This document shows, in pieces, positions 12,105 through 15,780 of a stretch of 39,039 nucleotides of DNA. Made by a program: the position numbers and the translations under genes. Each line of letters opens with the position of its first letter. Within the stretch, counting starts at the first letter, position 1. This stretch comes from Desulfonatronospira sp. (GTDB lineage Bacteria > Desulfobacterota > Desulfovibrionia > Desulfovibrionales > Desulfonatronovibrionaceae). Below the pieces are notes generated by a model. It made no database searches and was not told where the DNA came from. It was given only the letters and a program-made list of their open reading frames with translations. Location of the stretch: positions 1-39,039 of the forward strand of contig SLDX01000114.1 in the NCBI GenBank assembly GCA_007125075.1, in the 5' to 3' direction.

Positions 12105-12986
12105 TCATATCACCTTGTTCAGGGCATATTCAATGATCGCTTCTGCACCTTTTTGCTGCAGTTTCGGAACAAGATCCCGGACAAGATGCTCCTCGACAAC
12201 GATCTCAACAGACAACCAGTCAGTATTGTAAAGATTAGCCACTGTAGGAGCGGTCATACTGGGCAGCAGTTCCATGACGGTTTCCATTTTGTCTGCCGGC
12301 ACATTCATCTTGAGTCCGACCAGGCGATCAGCACGCAGTGCGCCGTGAAGCAAAGTATTGACGGTTTCGATCTTCTGCCTTTTCCAGGGATCCTGCCAGG
12401 CCTGCCTGTTGGCGATGAACTGGGTATTGGTCTGCAAGATCTCGGCAATGATTCTCAGTCCATGCGCCTTGATGGTGGTTCCGGTTTCAGTGACCTCCAC
12501 TATGGCGTCTGCCAGACCCTCGACAACCTTGGCCTCGGTTGCCCCCCAGGAAAACTCTACGTGGACCGGGATTCCTGCGTTGTGGAAATAATTATGGGTA
12601 AAATTCTTCAGTTCAGTGGCAATCTTTTTCCCTGCCAGATCCTCAGGCCTGCGGAAGGGTGACTCACTGGCCACGGCCAGCACCCATCTGGCTGGACGGT
12701 TGCTTACCTTGGAATAGATCAGATCTGAAACTATCTCCACATCGGATTCGTTTTCCATGATCCAGTCCTTCCCGGTCAACCCGGCGTCCATGGTCCCATT
12801 TTCAACGTATCTGGAAATCTCCTGTGCCCTGCAAAGAGAACAGACCATCTCCGGATCGTTGACCTCGGGAAAATAATTGCGGTGATGGGGCTTTATCTTC
12901 CAGCCCGCCCTGGCAAAAAGGCGCATTGTCGCCTCCTCCAGGGAGCCTTTGGGAATTCCAAGTTTCAGGATTTTTTCCCCGTTCAT
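12105..12986 (-). CDS. hisG: ATP phosphoribosyltransferase, long form
   Basis: First enzyme of histidine biosynthesis, joining ATP and PRPP. The 293-residue length and the C-terminal ACT-like regulatory domain (from about 220: [28 protein letters not shown]) mark the long HisG_L form, which is feedback-inhibited by histidine and needs no HisZ. Conserved stretches include [33 protein letters not shown] and the PRPP loop [14 protein letters not shown]. The ATG overlaps the hisI stop by four bases, and its ribosome-binding site AAGGAGG is encoded by the Lys-Glu-Val codons near the end of hisI. Confidence 0.97.
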
Positions 12987-13357
12987 TTATTGTAAACCTC
13001 CTTGGGGTCAAATACTGTTTCCGCACATACTTCAAAGCCGTCATCTTCTGCCCGGGTAAAAAAACAGCTCTTATATCCTTTGTGGCAGGCTGCACCTCCA
13101 ACCTGCTCAACCATGAAAAGAACAGTGTCCCAATCGCAGTCCACTCTTATTTCCCTGATCTTTTGAACATGCCCTGAAGTACCCCCTTTATGCCAGATGG
13201 TTTTCCTGCTCCGGCTGTAGAAATGGGCCTCGCCAGTCTCAAGAGTCCGTTTCCAGGCCTGTTCATCCGTATAAGCCAGCATGAGCACTTCTCCCGTGTC
13301 CCATTCCTGGACAATAACAGGCAAAAGCCCGTTGCCTTTGGCAAAATCCGGTTTCAA
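12983..13357 (-). CDS. hisI: Phosphoribosyl-AMP cyclohydrolase
   Basis: A 124-residue single-function HisI (no fused HisE), catalysing the third step of histidine synthesis. The signature [15 protein letters not shown] (from 48), the Mg-binding DCDWD (73-77) and the zinc cysteines in ACHKGYKSC (91 and 98, plus Cys74) are present. The start is a TTG (13355-13357) with a strong AGGAGG six bases upstream; no ATG or GTG fits the family N-terminus. It lies 51 bases after rlmN and overlaps hisG by four bases. Confidence 0.96.
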
Positions 13358-13408: not shown

Positions 13409-14458
13409 TTAACTGATGTCTTTTTTTTCGACTTCTGCTTTCAGCTGGCCGCAGGCGGCGCGGATATCCTGTCCCTTGCTCTTGCGCAGAAAAACCGTCA
13501 TTCCCTTGGAACGCAGAACATCCTCAAAGCTCAGGATGTCCTTCTGTCCGGGAGGTTGAAAATCATCTTCATCAGAGGGATTGCAGGCCAGCAGATTCAC
13601 CTTGCATTTTACCCCGGAGAGCAGGCGGACAAAATCTCTGGCCTGTGCGGGCGAATCATTTATCCCTTTGAGCAGAACATATTCAATGGTAATCCTCTCT
13701 CTTGGTGCCAGAGGATAATTCTCCAGGGCCAGTACCAGATCCTTGACATCCCAAGCAGCGGCTCCAGGCATTATGCGCCTGCGCAACTCTTGATCAGGAG
13801 CATGCAGAGAAACAGCCAGCATACCCAGACGGGACCGGCCGAATTCCTGCAGCCTGTCCCTGATGCCCACAGTAGACAAAGTGACTCTTCTTCTTGAAAA
13901 ACCAAGTCCCAGCGAATCGGTGATCATCAAAATAGCCCTGCGCACTTCTTTCCAGTTAAGCAGGGGCTCGCCCATGCCCATAAGGACAATGTTGGTCAGT
14001 CGACCGGCATCCAGACCCCTGCGGCGCAAATAATCCCTGGCGACCAGAATCTGAGCGGCGATCTCTCCTGCGCTCAGGTTGCGCTTGAAACCCATGCGCC
14101 CGGTACTGCAGAAGAGACATCCCACAGCACAGCCCACCTGAGTGGACAGACACAGGGTGTAGTAGTCTTTTTCAGGTATAAGGACTGTTTCAATACGGGC
14201 CTGATCGGACAAGCCAAGCAGAAATTTGGTCGTTCCGTCCATGCTGACCAGATCTTTAAGCACATCCGGTCTGGAAAGCAGATAGCTTCTTTGCAGTCTT
14301 TCACGCAATGCTTTGGAGATATTGGTCATCTCCTTATAATCTTGCGCCCCCTTGCTCCAAATCCATTGCCAGATCTGATCGGCCCTGTATCCGGGCTCAC
14401 CCAGACTGCAAATCAGGGCTTGCAGCTGTTTCCGGTCCAGTTCCAGAAGATTTTCTAT
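13409..14458 (-). CDS. rlmN: Dual-specificity rRNA/tRNA methyltransferase RlmN, apparent AUA start
   Basis: A radical SAM enzyme that methylates A2503 of 23S rRNA and A37 of some tRNAs. Read from ATA at 14456-14458 it has 349 residues: the N-terminal helical domain (NLLELDRKQL...EPGYRADQIWQWIWSKG), the cluster motif CAVGCLFC (Cys110, 114, 117) and the C-terminal methyl-accepting cysteine in AACGQL (Cys336). The first ATG (14329) would remove 43 residues of the conserved N-terminal domain and has GGAG directly against it with no spacer. An in-frame TAA lies immediately upstream of the ATA, no ATG, GTG or TTG lies between, and GGAG sits eight bases upstream. ATA overlaps the upstream TAG (ATAG). 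A sequencing error at this codon is the main alternative. Confidence 0.85.
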   Translation of the reverse strand: MENLLELDRKQLQALICSLGEPGYRADQIWQWIWSKGAQDYKEMTNISKALRERLQRSYLLSRPDVLKDLVSMDGTTKFLLGLSDQARIETVLIPEKDYYTLCLSTQVGCAVGCLFCSTGRMGFKRNLSAGEIAAQILVARDYLRRRGLDAGRLTNIVLMGMGEPLLNWKEVRRAILMITDSLGLGFSRRRVTLSTVGIRDRLQEFGRSRLGMLAVSLHAPDQELRRRIMPGAAAWDVKDLVLALENYPLAPRERITIEYVLLKGINDSPAQARDFVRLLSGVKCKVNLLACNPSDEDDFQPPGQKDILSFEDVLRSKGMTVFLRKSKGQDIRAACGQLKAEVEKKDIS

Positions 14459-15780
14459 TTAAGATGCTCCTTTTCTTTGTAACGCATGACAAACTCAATG
14501 GCTTCAGGAACTGTATTTACATCTCCTGCGGCCTGACTCTGCAGCAGGGCTTCTCGAAGGACGCCGACGCCGGGACCCGGGTTTATTCCGGCAAACTCCA
14601 TTATTTCATGTCCATTGAGCAAAGGCTCCAGGACCTCTTCAGAAAGTTCGGCCTTTTGCATCATTTTAAGATTGTGATTGAATTCCCTGTACCCGCTTTC
14701 TCTGGCCTTGATATCAGCCCGGACCATTTCAATAAGCCGGGGATAGTCGTCAAGAGCCATGAACCTGCGGATGCCCCGGTCTGTGAGCATGAAATGAAAA
14801 CGCATGTGATTGCGGATCAGATGGCAGATCAGATCTATTTCATCAGTATTGAATCTGAGTCTCTTGAGAATTTTTCTGGCAACTTTGGCCCCTATGCGAT
14901 GATGCTGATAAAAATTAATCTTTTCATTGAAATACTCGGCAGCAAAAAGCTTGCCCACATCGTGAAAAAGACAGGCCAGGGTTCCGTACCAATCATAGGG
15001 AAGCTCTTCAGGATAATGACGCATAACCAGAAGGGTATGTTCCCAGACACTTTCCTCCTTCTGATCCGAATTCCTGAACTGTTTGACCCTGCTCAGTGAC
15101 GCCAGTTCGGGAATTATGCCGTGCAGAATCATGCTCTCAAACAGAAGCTGGACAAAACGGTGCATGTTTTCTGCTTCCACCTTTCGCCACTCATCCATAA
15201 GATCGCTAACCGAGACATAGTCCAAAACCCTTCTGGAAGACCGCAGTATAGCCAGCCAGGTATTTCCTTCGATCGGCAGGTGAAAATTGGCTGCAAATCG
15301 CAGAGCCTTTATCGCCCGCAGATAATCCTTTTTCAGAGTTTCGTCGGGCAGGCCCTGCAGGCTGATCACTCCGGAATCGAGTCTTTCAAAGCCGTCAAAC
15401 ATGGCTCCTGCGTCAGGAATATATGGACAGGCCCAGGCTAAAGGCAGATCGCCCAGGAATTCCAGTTTATTCACCAGCCTGGGAGTAAGGCGGGCTATAG
15501 TCGCCTCGGTATACGAGCTTTCAATCACATCCGCGGGATAAAAATTGAATGTCATCTGACCCTGGCGCAAACGACCCAGAAAATCGAGCTCACCTGAAGT
15601 CTCCAGACTGGGGAAAAGTTTGTTCAAGCTTGTAAAATCCATTTCCGTACAGATATCGACCTCCATGTGTTCAGTGTCCATGGCCCGGTGCTGAAGAGGA
15701 GCATTGATCACATAAGCGTCATAGCCGTTGCGCATGATGGTTTTGCACAATGAGGCTGCGTCTTTGATGGGCTGGGGCAT
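14455..15780 (-). CDS. HD-domain protein with degenerate tRNA nucleotidyltransferase fold
   Basis: A 441-residue protein laid out like a bacterial CCA-adding/poly(A) polymerase family member with a C-terminal HD domain. The head/neck motif is preserved (DYLRAIKALRFAANFHLPI, about 152-170). The HD phosphohydrolase site looks intact: His248 (WEHTL), His273-Asp274 (FHDVGKL) and HHRIGA (293-298). The N-terminal palm lacks the family GGxVRD motif (here NAPLQHRAM) and has EVD rather than DxD (residues 40-42). Nucleotide transfer is therefore doubtful, while a phosphodiesterase or phosphatase role remains possible. Good ribosome-binding site AAGGAGAT before ATG. Its stop overlaps the rlmN start. Confidence 0.85.
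   Translation of the reverse strand: MPQPIKDAASLCKTIMRNGYDAYVINAPLQHRAMDTEHMEVDICTEMDFTSLNKLFPSLETSGELDFLGRLRQGQMTFNFYPADVIESSYTEATIARLTPRLVNKLEFLGDLPLAWACPYIPDAGAMFDGFERLDSGVISLQGLPDETLKKDYLRAIKALRFAANFHLPIEGNTWLAILRSSRRVLDYVSVSDLMDEWRKVEAENMHRFVQLLFESMILHGIIPELASLSRVKQFRNSDQKEESVWEHTLLVMRHYPEELPYDWYGTLACLFHDVGKLFAAEYFNEKINFYQHHRIGAKVARKILKRLRFNTDEIDLICHLIRNHMRFHFMLTDRGIRRFMALDDYPRLIEMVRADIKARESGYREFNHNLKMMQKAELSEEVLEPLLNGHEIMEFAGINPGPGVGVLREALLQSQAAGDVNTVPEAIEFVMRYKEKEHLK

Follow-up and report, generated by a model that had tools for sequence, protein, structure and literature searches.

In the sulfate reducer Desulfonatronospira sp., the gene for the RNA methyltransferase RlmN appears to begin at an AUA codon embedded in the stop codon of the preceding gene. 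We consider it likely that this is a genuine, conserved and Shine-Dalgarno-assisted start, which would couple RlmN to translation of an upstream HD-domain protein, at a low yield and with a probable sensitivity to initiation factor IF3. The window, i.e. the whole stretch of DNA analysed, is 39,039 nucleotides long and carries the following features:

14456-14458, minus strand: ATA start codon of rlmN, the sole plausible start, adjoined on its 5' side by an in-frame TAA; shared by 16 genomes.
14455-14457, minus strand: TAG stop codon of the HD gene, overlapping the ATA as ATAG.
14459-14461, minus strand: TAA in the rlmN frame, which rules out upstream starts in this genome.
14467-14472, minus strand: AAGGAG Shine-Dalgarno sequence, 8 nt 5' of the ATA and within the HD gene, matching the CCUCCUU end of a congener's 16S rRNA.
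13409-14458, minus strand: rlmN, dual-specificity RNA methyltransferase, 349 codons from the ATA plus stop.
14330-14455, minus strand: rlmN codons 2-43, 5' of the first canonical ATG (14329), encoding the RlmN_N domain; synonymous differences far exceed non-synonymous ones, in this frame only.
14455-15780, minus strand: upstream HD-domain protein of the tRNA nucleotidyltransferase / poly(A) polymerase type; the pair is conserved in many Desulfovibrionales.

Along the minus strand, AAGGAG (14472-14467) is followed by CATCTTAA and then by ATA (14458-14456) GAA AAT CTT CTG. The rlmN frame reads TCT TAA ATA GAA AAT CTT CTG around this point, and the HD reading frame (15780-14455) ends in AAG GAG CAT CTT AAA TAG. 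Between the TAA (14461-14459) and the first in-frame ATG (14329-14327), which lies 43 codons 3' of the ATA, the rlmN frame contains no ATG, GTG or TTG. A first-pass annotation of this DNA was therefore right that no canonical start is usable here, and also that a Shine-Dalgarno sequence lies eight bases upstream; AAGGAG is complementary to the 3' end of the congener 16S rRNA (CCUCCUUUA). It erred in having the ATA share three bases with the TAG: two are shared, and the genes overlap by four nucleotides (ATAG). Its likening of the layout to an ATGA coupling junction with AUA in place of AUG fits what we found, as the same 4-nt HD-rlmN overlap occurs with HD stop TGA and rlmN start ATG in genus g38 of family f5 (L068, L188). 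These two loci are naturally occurring equivalents of the AUA junction with AUG as the start. Coupled genomes share a 4-nt ATAR overlap, preceded at 7-8 nt by AAGGAG or a near match to it. The next gene downstream of rlmN (12983-13357), which looks like hisI, has a TTG start behind AAAGGAGGAAGGA and is followed by a hisG-like gene.

RlmN is a dual-specificity 23S rRNA/tRNA m2A methyltransferase, which targets A2503 of 23S rRNA and A37 of tRNA. The protein read from the ATA scores 389.6 bits against TIGR00048 (RlmN; cut-off 290), with the match beginning at residue 3, and its alignment with solved RlmN structures (PDB 3RF9/4PL1) also begins at residue 3. With the ATA as codon 1, Pfam RlmN_N (PF21016) covers residues 3-57 (E 5e-21); it has no match in the form starting at ATG 14329, in agreement with the earlier claim of a conserved N-terminal domain upstream of that ATG. 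By its curated family match the product is RlmN, and methylation of A2503 and A37 is predicted. Several relatives (G019:C20, G028:C16, G032:C8, G060:C34) encode an additional, more distantly related RlmN/Cfr-like protein with 40-48% identity.

The segment behind the ATA evolves as a protein. Between Desulfonatronospira species, pS of codons 2-43 is about 0.47-0.82 (~0.7) versus a pN of about 0.15-0.29 (~0.22), resembling the codons behind, and the other two frames show no such pattern. Because the constraint acts in the rlmN frame only, the segment must be translated. Together with the conserved Shine-Dalgarno sequence and stop overlap, AUA is well supported as the only plausible rlmN start.

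Aligning the rlmN start of relatives, a check proposed at the outset, paints a similar picture. In 16 genomes, each assembled independently and together spanning five genera and two families of Desulfovibrionales, ATA lies on the HD stop and forms ATAA or ATAG with it (L193, with a normal ATG at residue 1, was excluded from the count), which bears out the suggested AUA start. The carriers are five Desulfonatronospira genomes including the source (L001, L002, L003, L004, L006), six of genus g2 (L008, L010, L011, L013, L026, L029), two of g3 (L028, L042) and, in another family, two of g6 (L014, L037) and one of g18 (L038). The Desulfonatronospira relatives compared, family Desulfonatronovibrionaceae, include G002 (PWFB01000132) and G004 (SLAE01000095). 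RlmN has two extra N-terminal codons in L028 and L038, where the ATA has shifted upstream by as much and remains on the stop of HD. A start further upstream inside the HD gene was rejected: in the window it is blocked by the TAA, and a canonical codon shortly upstream of the ATA is absent in all 16 genomes (L004 has just a GTG at -369). Relatives in which HD and rlmN are separated start rlmN at ATG, or apparently at TTG (f4, L007). Across 80 loci from many phyla the start was canonical wherever readable, except at L077, which is G002 again. On the tree the ATA genomes fall into several groups, a pattern compatible with an old ATA state lost upon gene separation or with several origins; the AUA state may have been inherited from few origins. 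A search of open-licence papers found no prior report of an AUA start in rlmN.

AUA starts do not seem to be a general habit of these genomes. We surveyed gene junctions in about 650 kb with 390 gene calls, made up of the window, 400 kb of the congener G005 and 20 contigs of the source genome, of which the survey covered about 215 kb. The survey yielded 13 ATGA, four GTGA and three TTGA junctions, as well as eight ATAR overlaps, among which only rlmN, in both genomes, combined a coding start at the ATA with a Shine-Dalgarno sequence. The others were rejected as AUA starts, since their coding start lay elsewhere or an ATG, GTG or TTG was nearby. A separate scan for genes with no canonical start, and with a near-cognate codon and Shine-Dalgarno sequence exactly at the coding start, flagged rlmN alone, although genes in which an internal Met comes early, infC among them, escape it. 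As rlmN alone stood out among the 390 gene calls, a genome-wide use of AUA was rejected.

Is the AUA selected, or merely tolerated? It might be a real start yet a relic without regulatory role, for which strong Shine-Dalgarno coupling suffices. The coupled layout with AAGGAG would allow this, as would the several lineages (L012, g14, g11) with a separated pair and a normal rlmN start, and we regard it as a distinctly weaker but still credible explanation. However, ATAA to ATGA is a single transition, and the resulting layout exists in L068 and L188, yet in none of the 16 ATA genomes. The ATA is unchanged in the Desulfonatronospira set despite saturation, or near-saturation, of the synonymous sites, and the clade g1+g2 has accumulated roughly 3.9 amino-acid changes per column (summed tree length) with zero ATG. 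The HD stop of the 16 genomes alternates between TAA and TAG and is never TGA, which would create an ATG; the base after the ATA varies (ATAA/ATAG), so the HD stop itself does change. TGA is the commonest stop among the G005 genes surveyed (119/259). The C-terminal Gln codon of the HD protein is CAA in 12 of the 12 Gln-ending cases, compared with 14% of Gln codons in G005. The stop and CAA counts are not independent by descent, since genomes within a genus are related, and they give a direction only, with rough odds and no p-values. Since a single transition would yield AUG, the persistence of AUA speaks for selection of the weak codon, and the stop-embedded AUA is apparently a selected way to set the amount of RlmN.

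Translation could also begin at another codon, either at the internal ATG 14329, the first canonical one, or at a near-cognate just 3' of the ATA, such as the CTG codons at +12 and +18. Starting at ATG 14329 would lose most of the conserved RlmN_N domain. Furthermore, relatives with normal starts retain the protein motif to which its Met belongs, and an AAGGAG abuts the codon with no spacer. The near-cognates downstream lack conservation, and their distance from the Shine-Dalgarno sequence is about 17-26 nt. In L002 and L026, codon 4 is a TTG, at 17 nt from that sequence. We therefore hold a start at any of these codons to be improbable. Still less probable is an HD-RlmN fusion made by -1 frameshifting at the stop. 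The rlmN frame is indeed -1 relative to HD, with the stop exactly at the junction, but the codons before the stop differ (CTT AAA, ATT CAA, CTC TCA, CTC CGA) and none re-pairs well in -1. What is conserved instead is the A before TAR and a Shine-Dalgarno sequence at initiation spacing, and relatives with separate genes make free RlmN from an ATG. A sequencing or assembly error that turned ATG into ATA, the main alternative of the first-pass annotation, could be suspected in a draft assembly of 149 contigs such as that of the window, but it is refuted by the same ATA in 16 separate assemblies from five genera, including G005 (5 contigs) and G019 (about 30 contigs).

The gene for IF3, infC, has no canonical start in the same genomes either. 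Here, the end of thrS is GGAGG-AATGA or a variant; next come GTT or GCT and the ATA GAT ACC TCT ACT AAG of infC, and this ATA is kept in g1, g2, g3, g4 and g6. The apparent ATA start just after the thrS stop was seen in Desulfonatronovibrionaceae and in G019 (L175-L180, L157-L174; G000:C41:4881-5378); in other lineages (L157, L161, L173) infC has an apparent ATT start. AUA is thus likely the start of infC in these genomes, as in S. aureus. The initiator-like tRNA of the window's genome (L262, with a GGG/CCC anticodon stem) has the anticodon CAT, which rejects a variant initiator reading AUA. The other tRNAs inspected, which made up most of the 40 found, short of some with long arms, included none with a UAU anticodon. 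With a CAT anticodon, an AUA start entails a third-position mismatch, the type of start-codon mismatch that IF3 rejects. Strong third-position pairs are favoured by IF3 (PMC10158994).

Under the reading we favour, an AUA start coupled to the HD gene, ribosomes translating HD would terminate on the UAG or UAA, with AAGGAG 8 nt before the AUA. Part of them would re-initiate at the AUA with ordinary fMet-tRNA, its CAU anticodon mismatched at the third position. The weak codon would hold RlmN to a small, HD-coupled yield and probably make it sensitive to IF3, whose own gene also appears to start at AUA. We infer re-initiation coupling, low yield and IF3 sensitivity from the layout and from precedent. 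A low or coupled RlmN expression is supported by the evidence for selection and by the AUA start in common with infC. Overlaps of -4 are the commonest coupling geometry (PMC10666635). PMC13009471 gives AUA starts for S. aureus infC and ccpN, and an expression from AUA and AUU starts of ~10% of that from AUG, which for ccpN rises to as much as 30% in rich medium. According to PMC10666635, Hecht 2017 put near-cognate ATT at ~0.3% of ATG efficiency in E. coli. An efficiency of ~0.3% may be very low for an enzyme, which counts against the AUA reading. We could speculate further that infC and rlmN together make up a small regulon of AUA starts tuned by IF3, in which the RlmN level would follow the IF3 supply and, via the stop-embedded AUA, translation of the HD partner, but this extension is tentative and rather doubtful.

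Parts of this arrangement are known from other systems. The E. coli infC starts at AUU, likewise a conserved near-cognate start with a strong Shine-Dalgarno sequence, for which the genomes studied here would also use AUA. There are two differences: infC follows the thrS stop without overlap, whereas rlmN overlaps the HD stop, and RlmN is not an initiation factor, so that autoregulation would not be direct. In E. coli, the expression of pcnB, an RNA-processing gene, is limited by a rare AUU start. The kind of rare start is the same, and the HD protein here belongs to the pcnB/CCA superfamily; however, it is rlmN that bears the rare codon, and the HD gene itself starts at ATG. Another parallel is ccpN of S. 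aureus and B. subtilis (PMC13009471), a conserved AUA in a gene that does not encode an initiation factor, with a strong Shine-Dalgarno sequence and a lowered yield. It is another gene in another phylum, and the excerpted text of that source describes no stop-start overlap. The 4-nt ATGA overlap of termination-reinitiation (PMC10666635) has the same geometry, with the Shine-Dalgarno sequence inside the upstream gene; as AUA replaces AUG at the rlmN junction, the stop there must be TAA or TAG, and not TGA.

The HD gene lies directly upstream of rlmN in many Desulfovibrionales. Its product resembles class II CCA/poly(A) polymerases in the middle and HD parts (3WFO, 1.6e-31), and reaches no specific curated cut-off except those of the HDIG and HD domains. 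The N-terminal third of the protein (14455-15780), the nucleotidyltransferase head, has weak similarity. The HD protein is possibly a diverged or inactive CCA-type enzyme, and probably acts on tRNA. Given that RlmN acts on tRNA and rRNA, a functional link between the two proteins is conceivable.

Conserved near-cognate starts are already known; what is new is the stop-embedded AUA. To our knowledge, few bacterial genes besides infC have a near-cognate start kept by selection. Start-codon callers usually take only ATG, GTG or TTG, and a conserved AUA start is therefore likely to be mis-annotated or truncated. The stop-embedded AUA suggests a low-output version of the common ATGA coupling junction, and would tie an RNA-modification enzyme to the fidelity of initiation.
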